44,800 nt of DNA from a virus: positions 1 through 44,800 of the IMG/VR virus record IMGVR_UViG_3300010430_000111. One strand, written 5' to 3'. Below the pieces are notes generated by a model. That model saw nothing but the letters and a program-made list of their open reading frames with translations. It was not told the origin of the DNA and ran no database searches. A program made the translations under genes and the position numbers. The first letter of the stretch is position 1, and every line of letters starts with the position of its first letter. Positions 4,090 to 38,805 of the stretch are shown piece after piece.

Positions 4090-4652
4090 TGACATTACAA
4101 GTATCGGTCGGGACACAAATACGGTTCTTTGTTACCGGGTCATTTTCTCCAGCAGATGCTGGTACAAACTGGACTATAGGGACTCCGACTGATGTTGTTT
4201 TGACGCTATCAGCATTGGCGACAGCAGCAGGAAGGCAGTCAGCGAAAGTCGATCTTGGTGCTGCTCGCAGCGCATTATATGAGGTTCTTGGTTGTGTTGA
4301 TTTCACAGGCGAGACTCCATCAGCCGATGTCTCAGTTGACTACTATTGGGCACCATCCACGTCTACTACTACAGGCACTGGCAATGTAGCTGGCAATAGC
4401 GGGTCTGATGCAGCAGCTCCAGACGGTGCTGTAGGCTCTCCGACGTTGGCCGAATTTCTTGCCTTATGTCAATATATAGGCTCTCTCAGTACAAGTAATA
4501 ACGCATCTGTTCAAAATGGAATAGTTGGTGTTTTCGCTCCGTCTAGTCGCTATGGCCAATTAATTGTTGTGAACAATAGCGGCGATGCCTTTGAAGCAGA
4601 TGACGTTGAAATGCATCAGGTATTCAACCCGATAGATTATGCAGATGCGTAA
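4089..4652 (+). CDS. Probable virion structural protein (187 aa)
   Basis: A Ser/Thr/Ala-rich beta protein. Residues ~85-105 read VDYYWAPS followed by a Thr/Gly-rich turn, and the C-terminus ends in a short helix after VFNPIDYADA. The composition resembles surface or fibre-associated proteins. It overlaps both neighbours at ATG/stop junctions. No named domain recognised. Confidence 0.5.
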   Translation: MTLQVSVGTQIRFFVTGSFSPADAGTNWTIGTPTDVVLTLSALATAAGRQSAKVDLGAARSALYEVLGCVDFTGETPSADVSVDYYWAPSTSTTTGTGNVAGNSGSDAAAPDGAVGSPTLAEFLALCQYIGSLSTSNNASVQNGIVGVFAPSSRYGQLIVVNNSGDAFEADDVEMHQVFNPIDYADA

Positions 4653-5395
4653 TGGCAATCTTATATTTAGAAGACGCCCTACTACGTGAGCCTAACCTGT
4701 GGGTGCCGGGTAAGAAGCCTGTAGGGGCGGTTAAGATTGATTGGGAGCATCCTTTATCAAGAGGGTTAACTGGGGTTCTTCTGGCCAGCTATGGCATGAA
4801 GAATCTAGTTGATAATGGCACCATTACTTTCCTTCCGTCTTTTGAGGGATTAGGGACAAGTCAATATGGGCAGCATCTAACATTCTTAAATTCATACGCG
4901 GATCTTCCGTCATCTATCAGGGATAAAATTATAGATACAGGGATGATGTCTATTTTTGCGCGACAGCGATTGACTAATACGATATCAGCAGACCAGCGCA
5001 TTGCCTCATGTTGGGGCGGTGGTGGTGATGCTCAATTCATTTTATGGAATGATGCTGGCGGTGGTGGTGATGGCTATGCGTTTATTATTAATAATGGTGG
5101 CGCCAGGGTTGGCGAGAGCGTGGCAAGTTCTGTTCTAAACAAGTGGCAGAATGTTTGCGGCACGTATGACAAGGTTAATTTAAAAATATATGTAGAAGGA
5201 AAAGAAAAAGCCTCGACAGCGTACACTACCAGTTTATTCGCTTCATCGGCAGAGTATGGATTGGCCCGAATTAATTCGACGGTCAACGCCTATGATGGTG
5301 ATATGGCCTGTGTGTTCTTTTGGGATAGGGGACTATCCGCACCAGAAGTGTCCTCTTTGGAAGCTGATCCCTACCAGATCCTAATGCCAGCCTGA
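4652..5395 (+). CDS. LamG/concanavalin-like virion protein (247 aa)
   Basis: The sequence follows the LamG/laminin-G jelly-roll pattern: FARQRLT early, a strand containing FILWNDAGG, then WQNVCGTYDKVNLKIYVEGK and the closing signature DGDMACVFFWDRGLSAPEVSSL. The closing motif, followed by a D-P-Y/W-Q-I-L tail, is frequent in phage structural proteins. Such domains bind carbohydrate, so a glycan-binding fibre or decoration role is likely. It follows three beta-rich structural genes and precedes the repeat protein. Confidence 0.7.
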   Translation: MAILYLEDALLREPNLWVPGKKPVGAVKIDWEHPLSRGLTGVLLASYGMKNLVDNGTITFLPSFEGLGTSQYGQHLTFLNSYADLPSSIRDKIIDTGMMSIFARQRLTNTISADQRIASCWGGGGDAQFILWNDAGGGGDGYAFIINNGGARVGESVASSVLNKWQNVCGTYDKVNLKIYVEGKEKASTAYTTSLFASSAEYGLARINSTVNAYDGDMACVFFWDRGLSAPEVSSLEADPYQILMPA

Positions 5396-11253: not shown

Positions 11254-12621
11254 ATGAACACCGAGAAATTGCAGGAATTGCGCGATAGTCTTCTGGACTA
11301 CAACGAGCAAATCCAGACCATCCAGGCCAAGGCCGATGGTGAGAAACGTGACCTGCTGGAGGATGAGGAGGACAATATTACCAAGCTGTTCGCCGAGTAC
11401 AAAAAGACTGAGCAGGAAATTGATCGTCGTGAGCGCATTGATGCTCAAACCGCCAAACTGATGGAGTCGGCTGGTCGTCAGACCGAACCGCAACAGCCAG
11501 AACGCCAGGCCGCTGTGATGACAGATGCAGCGCCGGCACCGCAGTCAACCCGGCGCCCTCAAATCAGTATTATTGAGGACCGCGGCAAGTGGGGCTGGCG
11601 TAGTTTCGGCGAGTTCGCTGCTGCGATTCGTCCTGCATCGCGTAATGGTGGGTCTGTTGACCCTCGCCTAGTGCAGAATGCGCCGACCACTTACTCAAGT
11701 GAAGGCGTAGGTGCCGATGGTGGTTTTGCTGTACCGCCTGACTTCCGTGCGGCCATTATGGAAAAGGTAATGGGTGAAGGTTCGCTGATGGGTCTTACCG
11801 ACCAGATGCAGACTTCAAGTAATACTATTACTTTCCCGAAAGACGAGACCACGCCGTGGGATTCAAGCGGCGGCCTGCAAGCCTATTGGGACGGTGAAAA
11901 CGATCAGTTGACGCAGAGCAAGGTAGCCTTGAAAGAGGAAACCCTTCGACTGAACAAGCTGACGGCACTGGTTCCTGTGACTGAAGAACTGATGTCCGAT
12001 GCCCCCGCACTGGATGGCTATCTGCGCCGGCGTGTTCCTGAGAAGTTCGATTTCAAGTGTAATCTTGCCATCGTACAGGGTACGGGTACGGGTCAACCGA
12101 CTGGCATTCTGAACTCTGGGTCTCTGGTGAGTGTTGCTCGTGAATCTGGGCAGGCTGCGGACACCCTTGTTCATGAAAACATCCTGAATATGTGGAGTCG
12201 CATGTATGGGCCGAGTCGCGCTAATGCTGTTTGGCTTCATCATCAGGACATTGAACCGCAGCTTAACTCAATGGGCTTTTCGACGACTGCAACAGCTGTA
12301 CCAATCTACATGCCGCCAGGTGGGTTGAGTGCTTCGCCTTATGGTTCACTGTTAGGGCGTCCTTTGATCCAGACGCAAGCTTGTGAGACTCTTGGAGACA
12401 AGGGTGACCTAATTTTGGTGGATTTGAACCAATATATTACGGTCACTAAAACGAGTGGAATCCGTGCAGATACCTCGATGCATCTCTGGTTCGACTACGA
12501 CACAATGGCGTATCGCTTTATCTTCCGTGTCGCCGGCGAGCCGTGGTGGAACAGTGCTATCAGTCAACGCGATGGTAGCAACACCCTGTCCTGGGCCGTT
12601 ACTTTAGACGAGCGCACATAA
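11254..12621 (+). CDS. Major capsid protein, HK97 fold
   Basis: 455 residues. Residues ~1-100 form a coiled-coil delta domain that is probably removed by the upstream protease, followed by a Q/P-rich linker. The HK97-fold body then reads SSEGVGADGGFAVPPDF, LMGLTDQMQTSSNTITFP, a LTALVPVTEELMSDA segment and QGTGTGQPTGIL. A GGAG site precedes ATG 11254. The gene is flanked by intrinsic terminators on both sides. Confidence 0.94.
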   Translation: MNTEKLQELRDSLLDYNEQIQTIQAKADGEKRDLLEDEEDNITKLFAEYKKTEQEIDRRERIDAQTAKLMESAGRQTEPQQPERQAAVMTDAAPAPQSTRRPQISIIEDRGKWGWRSFGEFAAAIRPASRNGGSVDPRLVQNAPTTYSSEGVGADGGFAVPPDFRAAIMEKVMGEGSLMGLTDQMQTSSNTITFPKDETTPWDSSGGLQAYWDGENDQLTQSKVALKEETLRLNKLTALVPVTEELMSDAPALDGYLRRRVPEKFDFKCNLAIVQGTGTGQPTGILNSGSLVSVARESGQAADTLVHENILNMWSRMYGPSRANAVWLHHQDIEPQLNSMGFSTTATAVPIYMPPGGLSASPYGSLLGRPLIQTQACETLGDKGDLILVDLNQYITVTKTSGIRADTSMHLWFDYDTMAYRFIFRVAGEPWWNSAISQRDGSNTLSWAVTLDERT

Positions 12622-12628
12622 ACCTTTC

Positions 12629-12653
12629 GCCGCCTTCGGGCGGCATCTTTTTT
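12629..12653 (+). terminator. Intrinsic terminator after the capsid gene
   Basis: GCCGCC and GGCGGC form a perfect six-pair stem around a UUCG tetraloop, followed by ATC and six T. It is strong and lies just after the capsid stop, before the decoration-type genes. Confidence 0.85.
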
Positions 12654-12665: not shown

Positions 12666-13112
12666 ATGAGTAATACAAACCTTTTAGGTTCAGAGGAATG
12701 GGCGGTAGTCGGGCAGATGTATCCCGTTTCTCAAACTGCTGCAACGGTCTATACGGACGACGTGGATATGTCCCTGTTCGAGCAGGTCATCCTGGTAGTG
12801 ACAACCGGGGCACTGGGTACAGGTGCAACGATTGATGCCAGCATCGTATCTGGTACTGCCGCAAGTCCTACTACAGCCATCACTGGCAAGGCAGCGACCC
12901 AGCTACATGACTCTCCCGCTACAAATAATGATGACAATGTTGCCATTATTAACCTGCGTGGTGATGAGTTGACTGAGGGTCATCGTTATGTCCGTGGTAA
13001 GATTGTTGTGGCGACGGCAACATCAATCATGACCGCTGTCATGCTGGGCAAGGCGAAGTCTCTGCCTGCGTCTGATAGTGACTTGGCTGCAGTTGTGGAA
13101 ATCGTTGCATAG
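12666..13112 (+). CDS. Probable capsid decoration protein (148 aa)
   Basis: A small beta-rich protein with a GGAG site before ATG 12666. It lies directly after the capsid gene, where decoration or head-fibre proteins are encoded. The middle is Ala/Thr/Gly-rich, and a C-terminal strand reads YVRGKIVVATATSIMTAVML. I recognise no named domain. Neighbours and composition fit a capsid surface protein. Confidence 0.5.
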   Translation: MSNTNLLGSEEWAVVGQMYPVSQTAATVYTDDVDMSLFEQVILVVTTGALGTGATIDASIVSGTAASPTTAITGKAATQLHDSPATNNDDNVAIINLRGDELTEGHRYVRGKIVVATATSIMTAVMLGKAKSLPASDSDLAAVVEIVA

Positions 13113-13762
13113 TGGCAACCAGTAAGAAACCTGTCCCCCTGCTAGTCAGGGCTAAGGAAACCACCCCTCCGTCGGTTCAGACGGGGGGGCGGGTTACCAG
13201 TGATCTTGCGCCGCTATCGAAGGTGGAAGACGGGCTGTTATTCACTGTGGAACGTCCGGCTGATGGCATGTCCTATCAGGGGACTTTTCTGCAGATAAAG
13301 AATGCGGTTCTGTCCAAGTCCTACGCGATGATCTATACAGCTGACGGTGATGATTCTTCGCCGCAAGCCAAGCAGACAACATCATCAACGGCTACGCTAT
13401 TGGATACATGGGTCACAGATGGACTGTCGAGCAACATGACGGCGTCTGCTAGTACGGGCAGGATTACGGCTACTGTTGCTGGTGTTTATGAGGTTGATAT
13501 GTCTATTAGCTTCTCGGCCACAGCCAACAAGATATACGAAATCGAGTTATATCATGACGACATCAGCGCATCACCCACGCCGACGAAAACCGGGTTCGAA
13601 TTACAACGGAAGATGGGGACAAATGGTGATGTAGGGTGCAGTTCGATTACAGGACTGGTTGAATTGGAGGTCGGCGATTCGGTCATGGCATACATGAAAA
13701 GCGCGGACGGTGGCACAGCCTTCGTCTGTCACTATGCACAAATGAAGGTGACACAAGTATGA
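13112..13762 (+). CDS. Virion protein with C1q/TNF-like C-terminal domain (216 aa)
   Basis: GTG 13112 overlaps the preceding stop by one base. Residues ~1-95 are a linker/adaptor part. Residues ~118-216 look like a C1q/TNF jelly roll: GRITATVAGVYEVDMSISF, then KIYEIELYHDD, and a closing VELEVGDSVMAYMKSADGG. Such trimeric folds cap head fibres and may bind host surfaces. Its place after the capsid gene suggests a head fibre or decoration protein. Confidence 0.55.
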   Translation: MATSKKPVPLLVRAKETTPPSVQTGGRVTSDLAPLSKVEDGLLFTVERPADGMSYQGTFLQIKNAVLSKSYAMIYTADGDDSSPQAKQTTSSTATLLDTWVTDGLSSNMTASASTGRITATVAGVYEVDMSISFSATANKIYEIELYHDDISASPTPTKTGFELQRKMGTNGDVGCSSITGLVELEVGDSVMAYMKSADGGTAFVCHYAQMKVTQV

Positions 13763-14055
13763 TGAAAAAGATTCAGTTCCTATCGACTCAAACAGTTGAG
13801 GCACAGGGTGAGGTTGTCAGGACGTTTAATGCTGGCGAGGTGTACGAGATGGAAATATCATCGGCTCGTCGTTGGCTAAGACGGAACATGGCGACGGAGG
13901 TGCAGGGTTCAGTTAAACCCGCGCCTAAGAAAAGTGAAGTTGTGGCAAAGCCAAAGCGGAAATACACCCGCAAGCCGCCTATCACCAGTACCAAGGATTC
14001 ATCCGAATCAGACGATAGTGATTCTGGCGGGAGGCCCGTCCCTATCACAAAGTGA
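13759..14055 (+). CDS. Hypothetical protein with charged tail (98 aa)
   Basis: The N-terminal ~50 residues are a small fold containing EVYEMEISSARRWLRRNM. The rest is a low-complexity Lys/Pro then Ser/Asp-rich tail. The small fold plus basic linker resembles short head-associated proteins encoded after capsid genes. Its last ~120 bases overlap the start of the glycan cassette in a different frame. Confidence 0.5.
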   Translation: MMKKIQFLSTQTVEAQGEVVRTFNAGEVYEMEISSARRWLRRNMATEVQGSVKPAPKKSEVVAKPKRKYTRKPPITSTKDSSESDDSDSGGRPVPITK

Positions 14056-14590
14056 TGTAGACCTTACTCAGGGTCAGATAGTCATTGCGGTTAATGATTC
14101 TTATCAGATCGCACCGTGGGCAGACTATCATTATTTCTGTGACAAGAAATGGTATGACTGGCACAAGGATAGGGATGACTACAAAGCATTTGCCGGTACA
14201 CGGATTACACAAGACGAGATAGACGATCCTGACGTTATCAGGATCAAGGGGATACACAAACCCGGACTATCCGAGAGTCCCGAGGTGATTCACTATGGCC
14301 AGAACTCAGGTTTCCAGGCATTGAACATGGCCTACCTGATGGGCGCCAGTCGTATCTTGTTGTTAGGGTACGACATGAAACTGGCAGATAATGGCGCCGC
14401 GCACTGGTTCGGGGATCACCCTGACAAAGTAAGAAGCAGTTATTTATCGTGGTTGTCTAACTTCAGTATTGCCGCTGACCAGTTCAAGAAACTGGGAGTT
14501 GAGGTTATCAATTGCAGTCCAGACAGTGTTTTGAAATGTTTTAGACGGATGCCATTAGCTAAGGTGCTAAATGCTGAAGTGATCACATGA
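13934..14590 (+). CDS. MptE/DUF115-like (Maf-type) protein of the glycan cassette
   Basis: The conserved part starts at residue ~27 with TIVILAGGPSL, the nucleotide-binding motif of the MptE-like/DUF115 fold found in Maf glycosyltransferases and sugar-linked phage proteins. Later come NSGFQALNMAYLMGASRILLLGYDM and a DHPDKVRSSYLSWLSNF helix. The start GTG 13934 lies 122 bases inside the previous frame, so its exact position is uncertain. It probably transfers or activates a sugar. It is coupled to the next gene by ATGA. Confidence 0.65.
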   Translation: MKLWQSQSGNTPASRLSPVPRIHPNQTIVILAGGPSLSQSDVDLTQGQIVIAVNDSYQIAPWADYHYFCDKKWYDWHKDRDDYKAFAGTRITQDEIDDPDVIRIKGIHKPGLSESPEVIHYGQNSGFQALNMAYLMGASRILLLGYDMKLADNGAAHWFGDHPDKVRSSYLSWLSNFSIAADQFKKLGVEVINCSPDSVLKCFRRMPLAKVLNAEVIT

Positions 14591-15093
14591 TACCGATATA
14601 TATCGGAATATCAGAGCGGTTTAATTGTATCAAGGGGATGACCGAGAACAGTATCCGTTGGCATACAAATGCAGATGTGGATATTGTGCATCTGTATCCT
14701 GATGTAGAGGCAGGGTGTACGGGGTTTTCAGATGTCCGGTACGATATTGAGCGTGGCATATACTTGGATGTTGACATGATCGTGCTGGGCGATATTGCCG
14801 ATCTGTGGGCTTATCGGAAGTCAGGCCGGTTCGTCTGCATGGAGGACGGCAGCACCGAGGTGGCGGTAATTGACTGCCAACATGATTGCACTAATAAGCA
14901 CGAACAGAGCTTGTTGCCCAAGTCCTGCGACATCCCGCCGGAATGGAATGTCGAGGACCACGTTACACTAGGCGACATCCCTGAAGGGACCAAGCTGATG
15001 CATTATACGGCGCTGAAACAACAGCCCTGGACGCATGGCCCGCACCCGAATCCATACTTAGATTCCCTGTGGAGACAGTATATTGATACCTAG
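14587..15093 (+). CDS. GT-A-fold glycosyltransferase-like protein (168 aa)
   Basis: A short glycosyltransferase of the GT8/glycogenin type. A GT-A pattern runs IYIGISERFNCIKGMTENSI near the start, and GIYLDVDMIVLGDIADLW carries the D-x-D metal and sugar-nucleotide site at residues ~59-61. At 168 residues it is shorter than typical GT8 enzymes, so it may be a minimal domain. The C-terminus carries HY-x-A and W/HGPHPNPY motifs expected near the acceptor site. It overlaps both neighbours. Confidence 0.65.
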   Translation: MIPIYIGISERFNCIKGMTENSIRWHTNADVDIVHLYPDVEAGCTGFSDVRYDIERGIYLDVDMIVLGDIADLWAYRKSGRFVCMEDGSTEVAVIDCQHDCTNKHEQSLLPKSCDIPPEWNVEDHVTLGDIPEGTKLMHYTALKQQPWTHGPHPNPYLDSLWRQYIDT

Positions 15094-15760
15094 AAAGTTC
15101 TGTGGGGAAACGGCTATTGTTGCTGGCACAGGGCCGAGCCTGACGCCTGATGTTATCGAGCGATGCAACCAGGCGCGACAGGCTGGACAGGTAAGGATAT
15201 TTGCAGGAAACCGGGCGATTGACGTACTGGATGCCGATGTATTCCACGCTTGCAACTGGCAGTATTATGCCGAGTATTATGACGGCTTAAAAGACAACCT
15301 CTGTGATAAATGGACAACCAGACCAGAACTAGAGGGCAAGTATAAGGGCGTTGAATACATTGAGGAGCGATGGGCGGACGGACTAAGCAAAGACCAGTCA
15401 TACATCCATGCGCATCACGGTACTGGCCCGCAGTTAGTCAACATCGCCTATCTGTACGGATGTACTCGTTTGATTCTGGTCGGTTGGGATATGCGCTATC
15501 CCGGCAAGACAGATAACACAAACAAGCACTATTCCAAACCACGCCACTTTTTCAATGATGAGGGCCATGCGCCGGGTGAGGACTCGTTGACAGTCAATCA
15601 CTGGTCAAGGACAGACGCAGACGGAGGGAAGTTCGGACTGATTAGAGAAATGTCCACAATTATTCCGTCTGATTATGGTATTGAGATAATCAACGCATCA
15701 AAACATAGCGCGATGACCTGTTTCCCGATGAGGGATTTAAGTGAGTTATTGAATGAGTAG
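15083..15760 (+). CDS. Second MptE/DUF115-like protein of the glycan cassette
   Basis: TTG 15083 follows GGAG at 15071-15074 and overlaps the previous gene by 11 bases. Residues ~10-20 carry AIVAGTGPSLT, the same nucleotide-binding loop as the 13934 gene. Later segments HGTGPQLVNIAYLYGCTRLILVGWDM and HYSKPRHFFNDEG parallel its relatives. The two genes are probably diverged paralogues with related substrates. Confidence 0.65.
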   Translation: MIPRKFCGETAIVAGTGPSLTPDVIERCNQARQAGQVRIFAGNRAIDVLDADVFHACNWQYYAEYYDGLKDNLCDKWTTRPELEGKYKGVEYIEERWADGLSKDQSYIHAHHGTGPQLVNIAYLYGCTRLILVGWDMRYPGKTDNTNKHYSKPRHFFNDEGHAPGEDSLTVNHWSRTDADGGKFGLIREMSTIIPSDYGIEIINASKHSAMTCFPMRDLSELLNE

Positions 15761-16328
15761 CAGTATGTCAGCCCTGGCTGATCTGGCTATTGATTATGTT
15801 CGGCCTTTATTAAAGGGAACCCGGTGTTGTATTCAGGCGGGGGGTTGTATCGGTGCTTGGCCGGTACGGTTTGCCAATGTATTCGATCATGTTATTTCGT
15901 TTGAACCAGAGCCGGGAAACTTCAGCAAACTGGAGGAGGTCACACGAAGCATTGATAATGTGCGGGTCTACAATGCCGCGCTGGGAAATCAATCTGGTTT
16001 GGCTCACATGGAGATCACTGCGGGGGAATCGGCCAATGCTAATCGTGGCGCTTACTACATGCGGCCAGGTGGGGATATCCCTGTTATGATAATAGATAGT
16101 TTTGGTTTAAGTCCTGATTTGATTTACTTGGATATTGAAGGCGCAGAGTATATGGCGCTGGAAGGGGCCGCTGAAACCATTGCCCGGTCTAGTCCTGTTA
16201 TCGGGGTCGAGGATAAGGGCCACCACTCGCGGTATGGATCTCAGAGAATCGAACAACTGCTAGTTGATCTGTACGGATACAGATCGGCGGGAAGGCCGTT
16301 CAATACAGATCAAGTGTTTATAAAATAA
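15753..16328 (+). CDS. FkbM-family methyltransferase (191 aa)
   Basis: SAM-binding motif I reads CCIQAGGCIGAWPVRFA (residues ~25-41), followed by VISFEPEPGNF, the acidic motif II of the FkbM family. VYNAALGNQSG and YLDIEGAEYMALEGA complete the family signature. FkbM enzymes O-methylate sugars and natural products. It sits between two glycan genes and overlaps the first, so it most likely methylates a sugar made or transferred by this cassette. Confidence 0.85.
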   Translation: MSSSMSALADLAIDYVRPLLKGTRCCIQAGGCIGAWPVRFANVFDHVISFEPEPGNFSKLEEVTRSIDNVRVYNAALGNQSGLAHMEITAGESANANRGAYYMRPGGDIPVMIIDSFGLSPDLIYLDIEGAEYMALEGAAETIARSSPVIGVEDKGHHSRYGSQRIEQLLVDLYGYRSAGRPFNTDQVFIK

Positions 16329-16329
16329 G

Positions 16330-16905
16330 GTGGGTCGATTGCTCACAGTTATAACCATGTGTACCGGCGACAAATATTCGCCTGACTACGTTGACAAGTT
16401 AGAGCGCGCAGTAAGGCGTAATCTGAGCGTCCCTTATACGTTTGAGTGCATACGGGAAACCACATATCCCGGCTGGTGGGGCAAGGTGGAGTTGTTCAAA
16501 AGGGTGAGCGATGGTGGTTTTTTGTGGTTAGACCTCGATGTAGTTGTCACCGGGTCGCTTGATGTCCTATGCACCACTGATGCTGATATTCGCACGGGCA
16601 AGAATACAGCAAAGGCGAATCCAAACGGGTGCCAATCCTCCGTGATGTTCTGGCGACATTGCACGCCGATAGTGGACAGGTTCACGGTCAACGTGATGGA
16701 TGAGTTCAAGGGTGATCAGGATTGGATCACTCACCTGCGTGATGACAACGTGATTGATGTTGACTATTTTAATCCAGCGCACCTGGTTAGTTATAAACAC
16801 AAGTGCCTGAATGGTTTATCAGAAGATGCGCGGGTCGTTAATTTCCACGGCAAACCTGATCCGCACGAAATAGAGTCATCGTGGGTTCGAGATCATTGGA
16901 AATGA
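16330..16905 (+). CDS. Glycosyltransferase (GT-A-like, 191 aa)
   Basis: The N-terminus has VITMCTGDKYSPDYVDKL followed by WWGKVELFKR and GGFLWLDLDVVVTGSLD, with a D-x-D motif near residue 67. This fits a GT-A glycosyltransferase of the capsular/LPS type. The C-terminus carries VVNFHGKPDPHEI, where the His probably lies near the active site. GTG 16330 is the first start; an internal ATG at 16357 begins exactly where a similar DNA segment recurs at 34883-34924. Confidence 0.75.
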   Translation: MGRLLTVITMCTGDKYSPDYVDKLERAVRRNLSVPYTFECIRETTYPGWWGKVELFKRVSDGGFLWLDLDVVVTGSLDVLCTTDADIRTGKNTAKANPNGCQSSVMFWRHCTPIVDRFTVNVMDEFKGDQDWITHLRDDNVIDVDYFNPAHLVSYKHKCLNGLSEDARVVNFHGKPDPHEIESSWVRDHWK

Positions 16906-17393
16906 AAGTTCTGTTAGTTGGTAACAGTGTCGTCTTGCTAGATCAACTGCACGGGGATTTGATTGATGGATATGACAAGGTTGTTCGGTTTAACGGTGGC
17001 AACCCAGTCAAGCATCAGCACGCTATAGGAAGCAAGACCGACTACTGGTCATTCAGCACATTGAATGAAGCTGAATATCTGGGATGGAAAATCCCAGGCG
17101 CTATTCCCATGTGCTTGAATATGAGAATTGATTATCCCTTTGTAAAAGAGAACGCGGTTTATAACAACGCCGGGACATACCGCCAACTGAGGATGAACTA
17201 CGGGCACCCGCGTCCATCTACCGGATTAATTACTGCGCACTATATTTCCAAGTTGTGGGATTGTGATGTGTCTTGTATCGGATTTGATTTCTTTAAATCG
17301 GACACATGGTATCGCGGAAGCAATGAAAACATTCCGCACGACGGCAACCGGGAACGAGCGTACATGGAAGCATTGGGCGTTACGATACTGTGA
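16902..17393 (+). CDS. GT29-like sialyltransferase (163 aa)
   Basis: ATG 16902 overlaps the previous stop. Residues ~4-10 carry LLVGNSVVL, then GYDKVVRFNGG, which match the sialyl-motif-L region of family GT29. RPSTGLITAHYISKLWDCDVSCIGFDFF fits the sialyl-motif-S region. It is at the short end for GT29. It suggests transfer of sialic or another nonulosonic acid. No CMP-sugar synthetase is encoded here, so the donor would have to come from the host. Confidence 0.7.
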   Translation: MKVLLVGNSVVLLDQLHGDLIDGYDKVVRFNGGNPVKHQHAIGSKTDYWSFSTLNEAEYLGWKIPGAIPMCLNMRIDYPFVKENAVYNNAGTYRQLRMNYGHPRPSTGLITAHYISKLWDCDVSCIGFDFFKSDTWYRGSNENIPHDGNRERAYMEALGVTIL

Positions 17394-18169
17394 AGATCGT
17401 CATCTATAACGACACCACTAACGCATTTAGGCGGACGCATTTCGGGTGCCAGTTGGTCATGGAATCATTACGTGACCTGCTAACAGACTTTGACATTATC
17501 GGCAGTGTTTCGCTTGATGATGCGCTGGCTAACCGGGCGGACCAGGCATTGCTTGCAAAGGCTGATCTGGTTATTGCTAATGGTGAAGGGTCTTATCATC
17601 ACGACCGGCGACCGGACTTTGTTTGGCTGGCAAAGAATTATCCGACGGCACTAATCAACACGGTGTACGAGGACAACAACGATGACTTGAGTCATTTTAA
17701 ATACATTGCCGCCCGTGAGAGTGCCAGCAGGGATGAGATAGCCAAGCAGGTGCCGTGTGATCTGGTTCCTGATGTCCTGTTCTCGTCGCGCTACCTTGCC
17801 GGCCTGAAACCGACACATGGACAAGGTGTTGTCAGTGTGCAGCACTACCCGGAGATGTCGGTCTACAAGGGGATCACAGGATACCAGCGGGCAGTCGCTA
17901 CCTTACAGGACAAGGAAAAAGTCGTGCCGGTTATTGCAGCGGCAAACAGTGTAATGACGGGCAGTTTTCACGGGGTCTGTGTGTCGGCTTACTATGGCAA
18001 GCCCGTTACGATGTCAGCCAGCAACACCCACAAGATGCAGGGGCTGGCAGTGGATATGGGCTTGCCCTATATGTCGGACAAGGCGGAGCTGGCTAACCCT
18101 GATTATGTGCCGATGGCTCAACAGCGAATAGCGGGCATGATCGACAAGCTGAAGAAACTGGAAAGTTAA
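17390..18169 (+). CDS. Polysaccharide pyruvyltransferase-like protein (259 aa)
   Basis: GTG 17390 overlaps the previous stop. Residues ~60-75 read LVIANGEGSYHHD, and near residue 195 comes MTGSFHGVCVSAYYGKPV. Both are characteristic of the PS_pyruv_trans family (PF04230), which adds pyruvate ketals from PEP to sugars. It is somewhat short for the family. A pyruvyl cap would give the glycan a negative charge, which also fits the sialyltransferase next to it. Last gene of the cassette, three bases before the head-tail connector gene. Confidence 0.8.
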   Translation: MKIVIYNDTTNAFRRTHFGCQLVMESLRDLLTDFDIIGSVSLDDALANRADQALLAKADLVIANGEGSYHHDRRPDFVWLAKNYPTALINTVYEDNNDDLSHFKYIAARESASRDEIAKQVPCDLVPDVLFSSRYLAGLKPTHGQGVVSVQHYPEMSVYKGITGYQRAVATLQDKEKVVPVIAAANSVMTGSFHGVCVSAYYGKPVTMSASNTHKMQGLAVDMGLPYMSDKAELANPDYVPMAQQRIAGMIDKLKKLES

Positions 18170-18171
18170 TT

Positions 18172-18780
18172 ATGGGCGTATCTAATAGAAACAGAAATCG
18201 AGTAATCAGTAACGTTACGGTTATTACCCAGCCGACTATTGAGCCGGTGACGCTGGCCGAGGTAAAAGAAGTGCTTCGCATATCTAATGTTGACGATGAT
18301 GATCTGATTGACGGATACATTAGAACAGCAAGAATCTGGGCTGAGAATTACACGGATTTGTATTTCATGACGCAGGTTATAGAGATTACGATGGACACCT
18401 GGCCCGGGTATGTTATCGCGCTGGGGTCGTGGCCGATACAGTCGGTTGATTCTGTTAAGTATGACGATACCAGTAGTCCTATTACAGAGCAGACGCTTAC
18501 TGAGAACACGGATTACTATGTTGATGTCGTCTCACCGTGCGGGTTTATTGACATGATTGATACCCTGCCGAGCCTGACAACAAGACCCAATGCGGTCAAG
18601 ATCAGGCTAACGGTTGGATATGAGGTGGTGAGCGTAAGCCCTGAAGATTTAAGGAATGGCGTGCCCGAGTCTATAAAGACAGCTATCAAACTGTATGTAA
18701 AATCATTATATGACAGTGATCCATGTACCGAGGCAACGGCCCGGGCGGTTATTCACCACATGAGAAACAAGTGTGTTTAA
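18172..18780 (+). CDS. Head-tail connector, gp6-like
   Basis: The protein follows the phage gp6/connector pattern: VTLAEVKEVLRISNVDDDDLIDGYIRTA, then WPIQSVDSVKYDD and a C-terminal IKTAIKLYVKSLYD helix. These small adaptors form a ring below the portal. ATG 18172 follows GGAAAG. The normal head-to-tail gene order resumes here after the inserted glycan cassette. Confidence 0.85.
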   Translation: MGVSNRNRNRVISNVTVITQPTIEPVTLAEVKEVLRISNVDDDDLIDGYIRTARIWAENYTDLYFMTQVIEITMDTWPGYVIALGSWPIQSVDSVKYDDTSSPITEQTLTENTDYYVDVVSPCGFIDMIDTLPSLTTRPNAVKIRLTVGYEVVSVSPEDLRNGVPESIKTAIKLYVKSLYDSDPCTEATARAVIHHMRNKCV

Positions 18781-19162
18781 GCCATTCCTGAATGACTGCG
18801 GAACCTGCAAGCCTGGACAGTCGGTTGCGCATCGGATGCGGCACAAGATTACTATTCAATCTCCTGCTGGGTCCAGGAATTCTGTTGGTGAACGGGTGAC
18901 TACATGGACATCTGTATTGACTGATGTCAGTGCTGCCATTGAACCATTAACGGCCAATCAGCGATATGCGATCAGCCAGGAACAGGGCAGCATTACTCAC
19001 AGGATTTTAATACGCTATGACTCGGCACTTGCCTCTATGGATCATGCGTGGCGGGTGCTTTTCGGTGCGCGGATATTTGTAATGGTGGGTCCACCAATTA
19101 ACAAGAACGAAGAAAACAAAATACTGCAATTATTGTGCAATGAAGGGCTGCGTGAAGAATGA
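18773..19162 (+). CDS. Head closure protein, SPP1 gp16-like
   Basis: The body MRHKITIQSPAGSRNSVGERVTTW, then SAAIEPLTANQR and DHAWRVLFGARIF, matches the head-closure family (PF05521). GTG 18773 overlaps the preceding stop. An internal ATG at 18836 would give the usual family length, and the extra 21 residues (with CGTC) lack family support. It joins the connector to the tail. Confidence 0.82.
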   Translation: MFKPFLNDCGTCKPGQSVAHRMRHKITIQSPAGSRNSVGERVTTWTSVLTDVSAAIEPLTANQRYAISQEQGSITHRILIRYDSALASMDHAWRVLFGARIFVMVGPPINKNEENKILQLLCNEGLREE

Positions 19163-19515
19163 GTTTACAGAGTGACATTATTGCCCTGATGTCAGGGTCG
19201 CCTGAAATAGCAGGGGGTAAGGTTTACCCGCAGGCGGCGCCTGCCGATGCCGAACTGCCGTTTGTTATCTATCGGATATTCAGCAAAGAGCCAATCAGCA
19301 CATTAAACAATTCAGAAGATTTGATTAATTCGATAGTCGCCTTTGAATGTTATGCGGACGATTATCAAGAAGCGCTAGACCTTGCAGATGATGTGAAGGC
19401 ACGAATGTCTACTACCAGCATGGATTATTACAAGACATCATCACCAGGCGAGGAATATGTTCCACTGACGGATGACTTTATGGAGCCAGTTTATTACGGG
19501 TTTTGGCATACCTAA
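19159..19515 (+). CDS. Tail completion/terminator-like protein (DUF3168)
   Basis: The pattern LQSDIIALMSGSPEIAGGKVYPQ, then FVIYRIFSKEP and a C-terminal PVYYGFWHT, fits the DUF3168 tail-completion family. These proteins cap the tail tube at the head-proximal end. The start ATG overlaps the stop of the head-closure gene, in the expected order. Confidence 0.78.
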   Translation: MSLQSDIIALMSGSPEIAGGKVYPQAAPADAELPFVIYRIFSKEPISTLNNSEDLINSIVAFECYADDYQEALDLADDVKARMSTTSMDYYKTSSPGEEYVPLTDDFMEPVYYGFWHT

Positions 19516-19538
19516 CCTTTTAATGCGGAGAAATTGAG

Positions 19539-20183
19539 ATGGCAAGAATTGGCACGAACATGAGTGTACAGGTGGAAAGCACCAAGGCCACAGCCTTGAC
19601 GGTTTCCGGTATTACGAAGGCAAGCCCGGGCGTGGTAACAATCACAGACAGCCCGATTGTCGTAGTGGCGGGTGATATTGTTGTATTCACTGTATCGGCT
19701 GGAATGGTTGAGCTAGATGGGCAGGCGGTTCGAGTGGCTAATGTGACGGGTGATACATTCGAAATGGAATCACTTGATGCATCTGATTACAGCACATTTA
19801 CTGCAGGGACGGTGGCCATTGTTGATGCGTGGCATACCCTGGCAGGTGCGCAGAATATTTCCATGCCGGATCCTGCGCCGAACAAGATCGACATTACTAC
19901 GCTGATCGACAAGACCAAACAGAATACTTACGGTCTTCCCGAGAGTCCTGATGGCACGATTGCCGGTATCTATGATCCGTTGAATGCGGGTGTGGTTGAA
20001 ATCAAGACTGCAACCAAGGCTAATGAAACACGGGTTTTTCGGGTGAACTGGGCCGGCGGTCAGTATACGGTGTTCAATGCTAACGTATCCGGTGGGTCTG
20101 GTTTTGACCTGCAGCAGAATGGTGTTGCCACATCATCTATCGCCTTCACGCCCGTTAAAGATGTGATCGACTACGCCTCATGA
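19539..20183 (+). CDS. Major tail tube protein
   Basis: 214 residues, mostly beta. It has the tail-tube pattern MARIGTNMSVQVES at the N-terminus, an inserted hydrophobic strand pair (residues ~20-75), and a C-terminal part with KIDITTLIDKTKQ, EIKTATKANETRVFRV and VSGGSGFDLQQNG. A GGAG site precedes ATG 19539. It polymerises into the tail tube. Confidence 0.85.
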   Translation: MARIGTNMSVQVESTKATALTVSGITKASPGVVTITDSPIVVVAGDIVVFTVSAGMVELDGQAVRVANVTGDTFEMESLDASDYSTFTAGTVAIVDAWHTLAGAQNISMPDPAPNKIDITTLIDKTKQNTYGLPESPDGTIAGIYDPLNAGVVEIKTATKANETRVFRVNWAGGQYTVFNANVSGGSGFDLQQNGVATSSIAFTPVKDVIDYAS

Positions 20184-20524
20184 GTTTGATTTCCCAGATG
20201 CGCAAGGCGCGTCAGTCTATCGTTGCTGTTGACGATTATAAATTCACTATCCGCAGACCTACGGATTCAGAGGCGGCGCAGTTATTCAGGGACGGGAATC
20301 ACCAGAATCCTGAATACATTGCCAGTGAGTTTGTGGTGGGCTGGGAGGGCGTTACCGAGGCCAGGTTAGTTCAATCTGGAACGTCAGATGTTGTCGAGTT
20401 TGACTTGTCGTTATGGCGTGAATGGTGTGCGGATAGTCCACAGTTCTGGGTGCCCATCTATGCTGCTGTTATGGAAGCGTTTTCCAGTCATGTTGACAAG
20501 CGCGAGGAAGCGGCAAAAAACTAA
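20180..20524 (+). CDS. Tail assembly chaperone (G-like, unshifted product)
   Basis: 114 residues. The N-terminus overlaps the tail-tube stop. It ends at TAA after the slippery heptamer AAAAAAC. In lambda-like phages the G protein binds the tape measure during tail assembly. A longer product arises by frameshift (next entry). Confidence 0.85.
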   Translation: MSLISQMRKARQSIVAVDDYKFTIRRPTDSEAAQLFRDGNHQNPEYIASEFVVGWEGVTEARLVQSGTSDVVEFDLSLWREWCADSPQFWVPIYAAVMEAFSSHVDKREEAAKN

Positions 20525-20733
20525 CGAGCTGGCTTGAGGCTGAAAGTTTACCGGGCCGCAGGTCAGCGACCAGTGAAGAACACATAGCGATTCAAGCCTG
20601 GAATATGATGGGCGGTATTGATTGGTCAGGGATTCCTTTTGTCGTTGAATACTTTGGAGTGATTGATGTGGATGAGTTTATCTGTCGTCTGGTTGCTATC
20701 CGTGACAATGAGAGACTGAAGCATGGCGGATAG
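20180..20733 (+). CDS. Tail assembly chaperone GT fusion by -1 frameshift
   Basis: A ribosome slipping one base back at 20515-20521 reads from 20521 to TAG 20731-20733 without a stop, adding 70 residues and giving a 184-residue protein. The added part (LTSWLEAESLPGRR, HIAIQAWNMMGGIDWSG, DVDEFICRLVAIRDN) has no start codon of its own and the T-domain style of lambda GT. The frame is open and ends 11 bases into the next gene. GT fusions deliver tube protein to the tape measure. Confidence 0.85.
20515..20521 (+). promoter_or_regulatory. -1 ribosomal frameshift site
   Basis: A AAA AAC in the 0 frame (gcA AAA AAC TAA) is a classical X-XXY-YYZ slippery heptamer and is followed directly by the stop codon of the short product. 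Both the slippery string and the -1 open frame are visible. Confidence 0.85.
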
Positions 20734-21238
20734 TTCGCTGATCGGTGTTAAGGAATTAAATAGAAAACTGGAAAGGCTTGATCGGGCAACGGGTATCAAG
20801 ACGTTACGCGCTGCAATATTTAAATCCACTGGTCCAGTCTTCCGGTTAATGAAGGCGACTGTTCCTGTTGGCTCAGAGATGCACAGGACTTATCGTAAGC
20901 GATTGGTTTCTCCAGGATTTGCAAAACGGTCTATTAGGCGAATCATGGGGAAGAAGTATATAAACCAAGGAAAGTTATCTATTGCCATAGGCGTAAGGAA
21001 GGAAGCGTTTTATGCCATCATGCTTGATCAGGGACCGCATACCATTTCTAGACGCAGGCAGCAGACCAACATCAAGGCGCGAGGGCATGTAGGGTATAGG
21101 CGCCGTCATATCAAGATGAAACCTTATGTATTAAGGAAACGTCCGTGGTTTGAAACAATCTTTATTGCAAGCGAAAGGAAGATGGTTAATTCATTCAGAG
21201 ACAATCTGAAAGTTGCTATTGAAAAGGCGGTTAAATAA
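20723..21238 (+). CDS. HK97 gp10-like minor tail protein
   Basis: 171 residues. The pattern LIGVKELNRKLERLDRATG and a basic tail, with KLSIAIGVRKEAFYAIMLDQGPH, resembles the HK97 gp10 family. Those proteins usually lie before the tail tube gene; here the gene follows the chaperones. The protein is very basic, with many Arg/Lys and HTISRRRQQ. The start ATG overlaps the frameshift product's end. Confidence 0.72.
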   Translation: MADSSLIGVKELNRKLERLDRATGIKTLRAAIFKSTGPVFRLMKATVPVGSEMHRTYRKRLVSPGFAKRSIRRIMGKKYINQGKLSIAIGVRKEAFYAIMLDQGPHTISRRRQQTNIKARGHVGYRRRHIKMKPYVLRKRPWFETIFIASERKMVNSFRDNLKVAIEKAVK

Positions 21239-23148
21239 TGGTTGATATCGCACGACTAACAGTCAGGATGGAGGCTGAAAATGCCAAGCTGACCAGACAG
21301 TTAGAGAAGTCGCAACGTGACGTGCATAAATTCGAGCGCAACGCATCCAAGTCATTAAAGAAGTTTGGAACAGCAGCAAAGCTCGCCTTTAGTGCTATTG
21401 GAACTGGCATATTTGTTGCTGCTACAAGGAACGCGCTTGATTATGCTGACTCTGTAGACAAGGCTGCACAGGTGTCAGGGCTTGCCGCTACGACACTTCA
21501 GGAACTCAGGTTCGCTGGCGATCAGTTAGGGCTGACAACAAAGGAAGTTGATGAAGGGTTCAGGCGGTTCGGTCGTCGTCTGGGCAAGCTAGCTAATGAT
21601 GAGTCCGGCCCTGCGGCGAAAGCAATGGAGCAACTGGGCATTGCTGTCGAGGACACGGAAGGAAAGTTCCGTGGTACTGAGGCGGTGTTTAATGATGTCG
21701 TCAAGGCAATGGAAGGCGTTGAATCTCAAGCACAAATATCTGCATATGCGGCTGAGTTATTCGGTGATGATGCCGGTCCAAAGTTGGCCCTATTACTGAA
21801 ACAAGGCACTGCCGGAGTTAATGAACTGCGTCAAGAAGCACTGGACCTTGGTATCGTTCTTGATGATGCGTTGATTGCAACGGCTGTTGAAGCCAAAGAC
21901 CAGTTGGCAAAGTTGGGCAGGGTTATCAGTGTGCAGGTTGCCGAGTCTTTATTGAATCTCTCGCCTGTCATTATAAAGACAGCAAATGCTTTTCTCGAAT
22001 TATCACGCATTGCAAACCGGGCATTTTTTGATATCAAGACCAGCACGAATGCCAATGCTATTGAGGCAGAAATCAGTGACCTGCTTGGTAAGATTCAGTC
22101 GTCTAAAGCACGACTTGATCAGGCGCTAAAAGCAGAGGCTGGTAATTCCGCACAAGATTTCCTGGTTGCTCTTGGGCTCCCGTCCCCTGAAGTCCTGCAG
22201 CGCCGGATAGATGAATATGAAGGGGAATTAAAAACAGCTTATGCCCGGTTGAGTGAGGTCCAGTTTGATGCCGGACAGTTAATATCTCCCGCCATTGTTG
22301 GCGATGACGCCCTGCCAGAAAAGTTAAGCAGTGTGAAGGCGAAGTTTGAAGAAATGACCGGGCCGATGTCCGCGTACAATAAGCTACTGGCCGAAGCTGC
22401 GCAATTGACCAAGGCAATGATCACACCGCAGGATCAATTATTTGACAGCATGGAACGGTATGACGAGCTGCTCGAAAAGAATCTTATCTCGCAAGCTACA
22501 TGGGTTGAGGCGAACAAGAAAGCACTGGCCGACTTTAATTCTGCAGTAGATGAAGGTTTAAATCCTGCCGAGGAAAAGACCAAAGCCTTCGCGGATGCAC
22601 TAGCAGCCAATATGTCGTCAGCGTTTGAGGATGCCGTTATAGCCGGCGAGAATTTCAGTGATGTTATGAACGGGCTACTCGATGATATCCTTGCAACCAT
22701 TCTCAGGATGGCCGTTATCCGTCCGTTAACAGAAGGTATTGCTCTAGGATTGACAGGGATCTTTAATAGTGGCGGTACGACACCCACACCTACATTGTAT
22801 GAGGCGGCGGCTGGTGGACCTGCTAAAAAGCATCAACCTTTTATCGTTGGAGAGATGGGAAAAGAGTTATTCATTCCAGATGAGGCCGGCGTTATTATTC
22901 CAAACAACAAACTACCGAGCGTATCCAGTTCGACTCCATCATCGTTTGGTGGGGGCGATGTGACGGTGAATGTCCAAAACAATATTGGAGAAGCGGATGT
23001 TGATGTTTCACAGCAGACACGACCTGACGGCAAGCAGTTGATAAACATAATATTAAATAAGGTTAGTGAGTCTATCAGTACTAACGGAACCGTGGGCCAG
23101 GCTATGCAACAATCCTTTGGCTCGCGTCACACGGCGATGTCTCGCTGA
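21238..23148 (+). CDS. Tape measure protein
   Basis: 636 residues. The N-terminal ~40 residues form a coiled coil (AENAKLTRQLEKSQRDVHKF), followed by a hydrophobic stretch at ~45-62. Ala-rich helices follow, and a C-terminus rich in SSTPSSFGG then DVTVNVQNNIGEA, characteristic of tape measures. At about 0.15 nm per residue this gives a tail of roughly 95 nm. It sets tail length and crosses the cell envelope during DNA injection. Confidence 0.85.
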   Translation: MVDIARLTVRMEAENAKLTRQLEKSQRDVHKFERNASKSLKKFGTAAKLAFSAIGTGIFVAATRNALDYADSVDKAAQVSGLAATTLQELRFAGDQLGLTTKEVDEGFRRFGRRLGKLANDESGPAAKAMEQLGIAVEDTEGKFRGTEAVFNDVVKAMEGVESQAQISAYAAELFGDDAGPKLALLLKQGTAGVNELRQEALDLGIVLDDALIATAVEAKDQLAKLGRVISVQVAESLLNLSPVIIKTANAFLELSRIANRAFFDIKTSTNANAIEAEISDLLGKIQSSKARLDQALKAEAGNSAQDFLVALGLPSPEVLQRRIDEYEGELKTAYARLSEVQFDAGQLISPAIVGDDALPEKLSSVKAKFEEMTGPMSAYNKLLAEAAQLTKAMITPQDQLFDSMERYDELLEKNLISQATWVEANKKALADFNSAVDEGLNPAEEKTKAFADALAANMSSAFEDAVIAGENFSDVMNGLLDDILATILRMAVIRPLTEGIALGLTGIFNSGGTTPTPTLYEAAAGGPAKKHQPFIVGEMGKELFIPDEAGVIIPNNKLPSVSSSTPSSFGGGDVTVNVQNNIGEADVDVSQQTRPDGKQLINIILNKVSESISTNGTVGQAMQQSFGSRHTAMSR

Positions 23149-24836: not shown

Positions 24837-25153
24837 ACCTTAGCAAGTACATTGGGTTATCTTACGATGATTATCATTGCTGGCAACTTGTACAAGCAAT
24901 TTATAAATCTGAGTTGGGAATTGAATTGCCTGATGAACCGATTCAGATGGTCGAGAGAAACAATTGGCTAGAGGTGGAGATAGAGCACGACCTGGACCTG
25001 TTACTATTTGAAACAATCGAAGGTCCGCATGTGGGATTAAGCGTCGGGGAAGGGCGCATGATTCATTCTGATAAAAACACTGGCGTGGTTATTGAGCGTT
25101 ACAAAAGAGCGAAATGGAAAAACAGACTCCACGGCAAATACCGGCACACGTAG
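24833..25153 (+). CDS. Tail-tip NlpC/P60-like peptidase (K-like)
   Basis: 106 residues. Cys in YDDYHCWQLVQ (residue ~16) fits the NlpC/P60 catalytic cysteine (D-C-x-x-L), and HVGLSVGEGRMIH supplies the histidine. The protein is shorter than the usual ~140 residues. Such tail peptidases cut peptidoglycan to help DNA entry. The ATG overlaps the previous stop by 4 bases. Confidence 0.75.
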   Translation: MNLSKYIGLSYDDYHCWQLVQAIYKSELGIELPDEPIQMVERNNWLEVEIEHDLDLLLFETIEGPHVGLSVGEGRMIHSDKNTGVVIERYKRAKWKNRLHGKYRHT

Positions 25154-28100
25154 TCGCCAATCCGTTCGGTGTCGCGCACAAAGCGCACATCTGGACCGAG
25201 GGCGACACGCTCAAAGATATACTTGTTTCCAGTGGCGTCAATCTTAATGATGGCGTCTGTGTTCTGGTCAATGGGCATCTTGTACCGAGAGAGTTCTGGC
25301 ACGCTGTACATCCTAAAACCGGGACACTGGTCACGGTTAACTGCCTGCCTCGGGGTGGCGATAGCGGTGCTCTTAGAGTTATTGCCACGATAGCTATTGT
25401 GGTTCTGGCAGCATGGGCTGGCGGTTATTTATTCGGACCTGCAGGTGGTTTCGGGGCAGGTGCTGGCGGCGGGGCATTGGGAACAAGTGCTCTTGGTGCG
25501 GCGTTTGTGTCGGCTGGTGTTTTTACCGTTGGCATGTTGGCTGTCAATGCCCTAATTCCATTATCTAACGAGATGGAAAGCGGGACAGAATCATCTAATG
25601 CCCTCTCTATCGCACCATCGCGCAATCTGATACGACCTTTCGGCGTGGCGCCGATGCTCTTGGGAACCCATAGAATATTTCCGCCTCAAGCAGCGAATCC
25701 TTTTACAGAACTAGGTGGTGATGATGAATATGTGACGATGATGTTCTATCTGTCGCATAAAGATTTGATTGTAGATTCAAGCACGGCAAAGCTGGGCGAT
25801 AACTTACTTTCTAATTATAGCGATTATCAGATTGAATATGATATCCGTGATTCGGCGGTTGATGGCCCGATCACGCTTTACAACCAGAACCATACTCAAG
25901 CGACGGTTGGAATCCTTATTCCAGAGGGTGCGGCTAACGTTATCGTTCAAGCAGCCGCAGCGAATACAACGTCGGTTGTATTGGATATCACTTTCCTTGA
26001 GGGTCTGGCTGACTACGATCATGACGGCACGGGTTCTGATCCAGCACAGTCAAACCTTGAAATAGGATATAGAGTTGTTGGGTCATCCCCGGGTACGTGG
26101 ACATCAGTAACTAGAAATCTATGGATAAGAAGGACTGATTTATTCAGGATATCGTACACAATAGACTTACCAAATGATGGTCAGTCTTATGAGATTGGCG
26201 CCTATTCAAATATTGCTATATCAGGCGCACCTGGAACGGGTATTTATAATAAAGCGACGTGGGCAACATTACACTCAAAACAAACAGGCGTTCCGGTCAA
26301 TGACGAGATGGCTGCGCTATGTGCTTTGAAGATAAAGGCGACCGATCAGTTGTCTGGAATCCCCGACACCTTTAACGTCGAAGCGACATCACGGTGTCCT
26401 GACTGGAACGGCGCCCTATGGGTGATGGCGGCGACGAATAATCCTGCTTCACTTTTAAGATATGTCTTAACAGGCAGTCAGGGTAATTCCAGAGCGTTAA
26501 CAGAAGACCGGATAGATGATGCGGCCTTTCAAGCGTTTTGGACGTGGTGTGATACCGAGGGTTATGCCTTTAATTTGTACGTGGATTTCAATACCACAGT
26601 CGACAGGCTTAGATCACAAATCGCTGCAGCTGGCAGAGCCAGATGTTTTGCCGTTGATGAAGTCTGGACGGTGGTTATTGATAAGCCACAGTCAACACTC
26701 ACTCAGCTATTCACCCCGCGTAATGTCATATCATTCAGCGGTGCAAGGGTTTACCCTGATGAGGTCCACGCGTTCCGGGTCCGGTTTATCAGCGAGGAAG
26801 AGGGATGGAAGAACTCCGAGAGGATTGTTTACAGACCTGGCTATGCTGCTGATGCGCTGGGTAGTCCAGCATTACTGCCCGCGACAAAGTTTGAGGTTCT
26901 AGAGTTTCCGGGCGTTACTGATCCTGACCAGATTTGGAACCTTGCGAGGTACTGGCATCAGGTCGCTGTATTACAACCTGAAACATTTGCTCTGACGATT
27001 GACAGTGAAAGCCTGGTTAACCTGCCCGGTGATAAAGTTACGTGGTCAGAAGATTCATTATTAATCGGGATTGGTGCAGCAAGGATAGAGTCTATTGTTG
27101 GGAACCCCGCAACGTCTATCACTCTGGACACAGAAATGTCGTTTAGCACATTAGCTGCTGACGAGTTTTACGGGTTCACGGTTCGCAGGGAAGGTACAGC
27201 TATTGGAACATTCAGTGTGGACACGCCTGCTGTCCAGCCGAATGATACCTTTGATCTGACTACGCCGACCGCTGTTGCTGTTGGGGATCTGATTACGTTC
27301 GGAGAGTTCGGGGCGATTACTCAAGACCTTTTAGTCAGAGATGTTTCACCCGGGCCTGATCTTACTGCCACGCTTACTTGTGTTCCATACGATGTGCAGG
27401 TCTACGATGTCGATAGTGATACACCACCTGTTTATGATCCTGTAATTACTGACCCGGTTGATAAGCCGGCGCCGGGTATTACCAGTGTTCGGTCAGGTGA
27501 GACGGGTATGCCGAGGGATGCGTCCGGCGTACTTATTCCGTTGATTGCTGTTTCATATGAAACATCAGGGAATACAAGGGAGTATGTTCATACAGTTATT
27601 ATATGGCGTCCAACAATCACTTCATCGCCTGAGGTCACAAATAGTACCCCATTCGATTATAAGTTGGCTTATACAATCAATGGTGGTTTTCATATCACCG
27701 GCGTAGAGGTCGGCGTCGAATATGAGATTAGGTTAGCGAATAGATACTACAGTCCGGCGCCGGATAGTGGGTACTTAAGTACCTGGACGGAAACAACCCA
27801 TACGGTTTTGCCAGATCAGGAAGTCCCTCCAGATGTTGACGGGACTGATCCGGCATTTACGCATACGCGTGATGATGTAACTGGTACGCGGACCTTTGAC
27901 TGGTCATTAGATCCTGCTGACACTTATAGAAGTCAGATAGTTGGATATAATATTCGCTGGGTTGGAGGTGCTACAGCAGATGATTCGCCCGAGGTCACAT
28001 GGGGTTCAATGTCTCCGCTTAACTGGGATTTACCAATACCAGATACTATCTATATAACGAATACATTATTTGAAAATCTTAACTATAGGTTTGCTATAAA

Positions 28101-36632: not shown

Positions 36633-36961
36633 GTCATTCTCCATCCCGGTTGCATTGATTCGATAACGTCATAGTCGTCGGGTTCACAGTAGGATGTCAC
36701 CCACTTACTCACGTAGGCGCCTATGACGCTCGTATGAATGCCTGTAAAGTTGCCCTTGATAAGCCTTGCCAGATTCTTTAAGTCGTCGTCACACTGCTCT
36801 CCCAGTGCCTCAAGCATGTATTCAGGGTCTGCTATACGTGCATCCCACATTTCCTTCTTCGCGTCCTGAAACTCGTCGGTATCTTCTATTGGATCAGGTT
36901 GGTTCCACGGCGCGTTCGGGTCGTTGTAAGTGCCTGGTGCGTAGTTGTCCTTGTCGCTCAT
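36629..36961 (-). CDS. Hypothetical protein upstream of recT (110 aa)
   Basis: Acidic protein starting MSDKDNYAPGTYNDPNAPWNQ, with a middle helix EFQDAKKEMWDARIADPEY and a C-terminal DYDVIESMQPGWRM. No nuclease motif is visible, so it is unlikely to be a RecE-type exonuclease. Its stop overlaps the recT start. Confidence 0.55.
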   Translation of the reverse strand: MSDKDNYAPGTYNDPNAPWNQPDPIEDTDEFQDAKKEMWDARIADPEYMLEALGEQCDDDLKNLARLIKGNFTGIHTSVIGAYVSKWVTSYCEPDDYDVIESMQPGWRMT

Positions 36962-38723: not shown

Positions 38724-38805
38724 ATGGATATTTTCAAATCCTGCATGGATATCTTGATGAAAGGGCGGAAGAACTTAAAAAATGTTGCTAAAAGTGGGGT
38801 TTATA

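Follow-up and report, generated by a model that had tools for sequence, protein, structure and literature searches.

Why would a tailed phage keep seven overlapping genes for glycan modification between those for its capsid and its head-tail connector, and on what would their products act? The question is raised by the IMG/VR virus record IMGVR_UViG_3300010430_000111, a metagenomic siphophage whose 44.8 kb are here termed ‘the window’, and in which the seven genes (A to G) occupy positions 13934-18169. The answer favored here is that the cassette probably serves cytosolic O-glycosylation of virion proteins, begun by a Maf-like enzyme that would use a cytidine monophosphate (CMP)-activated acidic sugar. 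A literature search found no paper describing this island, and what is new is the junction hotspot to which it belongs, together with its Maf-like anchor gene and a kinship to genes of phages P1 and D3.

All seven open reading frames (ORFs) are present on the + strand, where the original prediction had placed them. The island is bordered on the left by the gene for an HK97-type major capsid protein (11254-12621, +; phrog_10, 8.9e-54) and on the right by that for a gp6-like head-tail connector (18172-18780, +; PF05135, 4.6e-8; phrog_442, 1.7e-23). From a small gene at 13759 through to the connector gene the successive intergenic gaps are -122, -4, -11, -8, +1, -25, -4 and +2 bp, the +1 being the sole positive gap within the cassette, and we infer late expression, which had also been proposed, from this overlap and the common orientation only. 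The cassette has 49.2% guanine plus cytosine and its flanks 50.7% and 47.9%; recent foreign origin, of which this close agreement gives no sign, was discarded as an idea.

The enzyme families named at the outset were nearly all recovered. A and C (15083-15760) are the two expected MptE/DUF115-like proteins, C matching PF01973 below its curated cut-off (3.4e-6) and phrog_4603 (1.2e-15), and falling in a separate clade of the tree. Two GT-A-like enzymes with DxD motifs are B (14587-15093), which is GT8-like through a weak match below cut-off (PF01501, 4.9e-4; LDVD at residue 60), and E (16330-16905), a phrog_1962 glycosyltransferase (1.7e-16; LDLD) of the P1 PmgQ family (match to PmgQ, 1e-6). 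D (15753-16328) is an S-adenosylmethionine-dependent methyltransferase of the FkbM family (PF05050, 9.6e-11; TIGR01444, 5.2e-18). F (16881-17393) is a compact GT29 protein scoring 32.4 bits against a curated Pfam cut-off of 23 (PF00777, 7.9e-8), with sialylmotifs L (VGNS...GSKTD), S (PSTG...GF at 112) and VS (HDGNRE at 153) in some 163-170 residues, as against 275-374 in the solved animal chains. Its more likely start is the ATG at 16902, in an ATGA overlap with the stop codon of E, rather than position 16881. The donor of F would be a CMP-activated sugar, sialic acid or, as could be the case, 3-deoxy-D-manno-oct-2-ulosonic acid (Kdo) or another nonulosonate. With the supposed pyruvyltransferase, G (17390-18169), the match to the polysaccharide pyruvyltransferase family stands, barely (PF04230, 1.2e-5; 25.8 bits where the curated cut-off is 25.3), and pyruvate transfer by G is no more than possible. 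A simple hydropathy scan found no predicted membrane segment above threshold in any of the seven.

That these reading frames are more than chance is borne out around the F/G junction by a contig, L067 (99.6% identical), that matches window positions 17432-22569 except for one base. In 17243-17431, i.e. F and the start of G, the two have 22 differing sites, affecting 16 codons synonymously and 3 non-synonymously. The differences form a sharp block (L067 1-196 against window 17236-17431) that ends in the 5′ part of G. Purifying selection on F and G together with recombination inside the cassette fits this block, which sits at the end of the contig, so that assembly error is possible.

The DNA from capsid to connector gave no match to isolated phages. 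Since isolated phages offer hardly any homologues of F and G, and IMG/VR one near-identical contig, the island was studied via its neighbors and gene A. Across 32 loci with both borders, the window counted, the distance from capsid to connector ranges from 85 to 7934 bp. Among 17 non-redundant loci retrieved with the capsid alone, 10 have less than 1.7 kb there and 7 have 2.9-5.6 kb; in such capsid-retrieved loci cassette families occur 7 times inside the island and twice outside it (binomial p 8e-5, on small numbers). Pfam matches of 95 unlabelled island ORFs were to methyltransferases, sulfotransferases, GT2, GT9, CgtA-like proteins, pyruvyltransferase, a cytidylyltransferase, a DegT aminotransferase and, in some cases, homing-nuclease motifs. 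For 125 ORFs outside the islands of the same contigs they were for the most part to terminase, tail and baseplate families, plus one each to GT9 and GT-D. Matches to phrog_1962 and FkbM in 22 records were located in the island, and sulfotransferase matches were present in 4 of 24 records, as likewise were those to pyruvyltransferase. The capsid-connector junction is thus a hotspot filled with shuffled glycan genes. A homing-type gene with NUMOD3 repeats lies within one island (L015, 9787-10689) and is a possible route of island exchange.

The theme of acidic sugars, which had been drawn from F and G, comes out stronger than claimed, because in related islands there are also sulfotransferases and homologues of pyruvyltransferase, as well as an aminotransferase and a cytidylyltransferase. 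In one of them (L011) a fused cytidylyltransferase and RraA-like protein adjoins a DUF115 gene, preceded by a sulfotransferase gene and an E gene; its cytidylyltransferase part comes nearest to the models of PseF and CMP-Kdo synthetase, without reaching the cut-off of either. Another (L052) has a PseC/ArnB-like aminotransferase. Both fit a CMP-activated acidic sugar as the predicted donor. The window proteins that were examined include no product of such a donor-synthesis gene, making use of a host sugar pool likely.

Which enzyme would place the first sugar, and on what, is best approached through A (13934-14590), the anchor of the island and a member of the family of P1 PmgO and D3 orf7. Its sequence matches the MptE-like family PF01973 below the curated cut-off (5.9e-6) and phrog_4603 strongly (2.6e-44), and the family alignment conserves GPSL, N54, NSGxQ, GxDM and HWFGDHP (in A, AGGPSL at 32, NSG at 124, and H157 and H162 within HWFGDHP). 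An AlphaFold model with a predicted local distance difference test score (pLDDT) of 92.8 is closest among solved folds to Maf (5mu5, Z 15.6, with 192 residues aligned), followed by Cst-I (12.0), CstII (11.2) and the MptE HPPK 8sd5 (11.0). In a profile comparison the relation to CstII is weak (E 0.002), with His162 of A aligned to the column of what we take to be the catalytic histidine of CstII. At 218 amino acids A aligns to residues 253-516 only of the 632-residue Maf chain and has neither of its N- and C-terminal flanking domains, so that on the model it is Maf-like, and not a Maf. Maf enzymes work in the cytoplasm, where they draw on soluble donors to glycosylate Ser/Thr of flagellin, two being reported to use N-acetylneuraminic acid (Neu5Ac) or Kdo (PMC7591256). 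By analogy, the fold suggests that A may transfer a nonulosonate from a CMP-activated donor to protein Ser/Thr. The start of A inside the gene at 13759-14055 is an uncertain call; overlap of the start of A with a small upstream gene is seen in the window (13934-14055), in D3 orf6.5/orf7 (L065 3977-4142) and in P1 pmgN/pmgO (L091 3970-4028), and so recurs in distant phages.

The phage collection has 75 records with homologues of A, and the company that these keep is pertinent. In D3 the homologue is orf7, between capsid and head-tail adaptor. In P1 it is pmgO, with pmgP encoding a second DUF115 protein (profile E 1e-10) and pmgQ a homologue of E; the P7 counterparts HdmB, HdmC and HdmD are annotated ‘head morphogenesis’. 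In the tree, C and the second DUF115 protein of P1 belong to separate clades. Of the 30 phage records that contain E, at least 21 contain A as well, though these records are phylogenetically redundant, and where coordinates were compared the two genes are some 1-2 kb apart. Among giant phages, CcrColossus has its A homologue downstream of tail genes, along with other glycan genes. On bacterial contigs, scanned with a 9-row alignment of A, a virion gene lies no more than 2 kb from the A gene in 19 of 21 loci; the records are mostly alphaproteobacterial.

From what is directly supported, i.e. gene content, overlap, folds and motifs, hotspot behavior, purifying selection at the F/G junction and kinship with P1 and D3, we infer an acceptor, a donor, an order of steps and a benefit as follows. 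The cassette enzymes would be made alongside the head proteins as a self-contained cytosolic system, in which A, perhaps with C, begins the glycan on Ser/Thr of an abundant virion protein with a CMP-activated acidic sugar (Kdo or another nonulosonate from the host pool). Extension would then fall to B, E and the GT29-like F, and methylation to D, and a pyruvyl ketal may come from G. The outcome would be a variable acidic coat on the particle, related phages having different coats because the junction recombines freely. Choice of coat would probably be driven by antagonists that bind particles, for example host lectins, proteases, predators, antibodies, surfaces or debris.

Candidate acceptors are the capsid protein, the major tail protein and the products of two of the three small genes that separate the capsid gene from the cassette. 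One of these (12666-13112, +; phrog_28483) is a predicted beta-sandwich, possibly a capsid cement or decoration protein, with 20% Ser plus Thr and a structure model of pLDDT 83. Its fold list includes the Bordetella phage cement protein (3j4u_H, Z 8.8) and that of KHP40 (7dou, Z 8.3), tied with unrelated folds to a degree that does not allow a family to be assigned. The next (13112-13762, +) is rich in Ser and Thr (23%), has a weak minor-tail similarity (phrog_746, 1.6e-4) and may be an exposed fiber. A homologue of it in another contig (L063, 2523-3173) is upstream of the portal gene, making it a mobile structural gene. The third ORF (13759-14055, +), the one that overlaps the start of A, encodes a small basic protein with a tail rich in Ser, Thr and Asp, and many relatives have a homologue of it in the corresponding position. 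Directly 3′ of the capsid gene, at 12629-12644, is a strong terminator-like hairpin with a T run that perhaps lowers downstream expression.

Several observations weigh against virion glycosylation. About half of the hotspot loci were retrieved with gene A, so the set is biased; B and G are marginal family matches; and A is a catalytic core only. P1 pmgO, pmgP and pmgQ are tabulated as non-essential (PMC10695390), and 24 of 29 P1 knockouts had no plaque defect, in a text that names neither PmgO nor PmgQ (PMC9024508). Such dispensability for plaques is compatible with decoration and lends it no positive support; it is expected of decoration, so that loss of the cassette without effect, put forward earlier as a potential refutation, would not count against it. 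In RAS14, another giant phage, the genes for A and E are beside ribonucleotide reductase genes, and not virion genes, in the stretch read. The literature search turned up no phage that has an A-family gene and is reported to bear a glycan.

The original prediction had allowed, as a second target, late remodeling of the host surface. By changing the lipopolysaccharide, capsule or exopolysaccharide of the infected cell, the enzymes would keep new virions from sticking to host or debris, or exclude competitors. Pyruvyltransferases, FkbM proteins and GT9-type enzymes do usually act on surface polysaccharides, and the host probably has one: the 2051-amino-acid tail protein of the window (25114-31269) carries a C-terminal polysaccharide lyase 14 domain (residues 1846-2042, window 30649-31239; PF21294, 1e-9), and is likely a capsule or exopolysaccharide depolymerase. 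However, the cassette is without a membrane, flippase or polymerase gene, the hydropathy scan gave predicted membrane segments in just 3 of 151 island ORFs of relatives, and known O-antigen-converting phage genes are membrane systems outside the head operon. Moreover, even in prophages and phages that are only distantly related, the anchor gene A remains in the company of virion genes. Soluble enzymes, the Maf-like anchor, synteny with virion genes and the precedent of phage Corndog favor decoration of virion proteins, leaving surface remodeling an unlikely alternative. Somewhat less likely still is that the junction is a tolerated insertion point for unrelated accessory genes, among which glycan enzymes are merely common and have varied targets (virion, host or small molecules). 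HNH/NUMOD homing genes in some islands and the many ORFs of no known family would accord with this, but the enzyme classes make up a coherent glycan pathway, donor synthesis included, and in most of the phage records that contain E it is found together with A (given the redundancy already mentioned). That A and E homologues serve head or neck morphogenesis without attaching sugars, as the names PmgO/PmgQ and HdmB/HdmD and the capsid-connector position might imply, is very improbable, given that CRISPR interference and deletion list the three P1 genes as non-essential (PMC10695390, PMC9024508), that catalytic-type motifs are conserved, and that relatives (L019 and L026) form this junction without any gene of the kind.

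The rest of the window is that of an HK97-type siphophage, Pfam and PHROG matches giving a head module in the order terminase, portal, protease, capsid, and, downstream of the cassette, genes for connector, head closure, tail terminator, major tail and tape measure proteins. Upstream of the terminase gene, at 4652-5395, is a gene for a protein with a LamG/concanavalin-type lectin domain (PF13385, 5e-16). A RecT-family recombinase is encoded on the - strand at 35523-36644 (PF03837, 1.4e-29), and a PAPS-reductase/DUF3440 protein at 38782-40122 (1.7e-55), the latter of interest given the sulfotransferases in related islands. Defence-system models gave no match.

If virion glycosylation by the cassette is accepted, a broader proposition, tentative and on present indications rather doubtful, is that O-glycosylation of virions is widespread, and has hitherto gone unrecognized, in phages of Gram-negative bacteria. 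A minimal Maf/GT42-like protein would add Kdo, taken from a CMP-Kdo pool that is universal, or another nonulosonate to head proteins; P1 pmgO-pmgP-pmgQ would be the minimal form, and the capsid-connector island an elaborated form, rapidly swapped, through which every lineage acquires an acidic coat of its own. In E. coli K-12, the host of P1, CMP-Kdo would be the obvious candidate donor pool. Virion glycosylation by phage enzymes is documented in few tailed phages, the cases found being mycobacteriophages. Were the proposition true, ‘putative morphogenetic’ genes of P1, P7 and D3, and a hotspot of diversity in many environmental phages, would become coat-sugar genes, and phages would be seen to vary the acidic sugars on their surface much in the way that bacteria vary their capsules. 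As single-gene knockouts and a virion proteome of P1 are published, the idea is directly testable.

Comparison with known systems is instructive in this regard. Corndog, a mycobacteriophage of cluster O here compared by published description, resembles the window in having several glycan enzymes (gp35-gp38) within its virion operon. An O-methyltransferase and three glycosyltransferases are encoded between portal and protease, and are produced in infected cells and not identified in the best-purified virions (PMC4351075); its capsid is reported to be glycosylated (Freeman 2023, as cited in PMC12363180). The portal-protease position and the mycobacterial host differ, and unlike the window no Maf/GT42-like, GT29 or pyruvyltransferase protein is reported. 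Gtr-type O-antigen conversion depends on membrane flippase and transferase proteins, in contrast to A-G with no hydrophobic segment above threshold. With Campylobacter Cst-I and Cst-II (GT42), A shares the fold (Z 11-12), the GPSL motif and a histidine loop, at a sequence identity of about 15-18%; their acceptor is lipooligosaccharide. The best structural match to A, Maf (e.g. Magnetospirillum 5mu5), is a case of cytoplasmic O-glycosylation of a self-assembling protein, though it is about three times longer, has flanking domains and acts on flagellin.

Among phages, D3 orf7 and its Detrevirus counterparts are similar to the window in having an A homologue at the junction of capsid and head-tail adaptor genes, with a methyltransferase gene following among the neck genes, but A is alone at that junction with no multi-gene cassette. 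P1 (pmgN-pmgO-pmgP-ppp-pmgQ) and P7 (hdmA-hdmB-hdmC-ppp-hdmD) bring together in one cluster an A homologue, whose start a small gene overlaps as in the window, a second DUF115 protein and an E homologue. These clusters differ in not being between capsid and connector and in including a protein phosphatase, and no homologues of B, D, F or G were found in them. In the tailed Tetraselmis viridis virus S20, in whose island no GT29 or pyruvyltransferase homologue was found, two DUF115 genes, an FkbM-family gene, E, another glycosyltransferase gene and a methyltransferase gene directly precede head closure Hc1. Gene order differs there too, but S20 is the nearest named analogue of the island as a whole.

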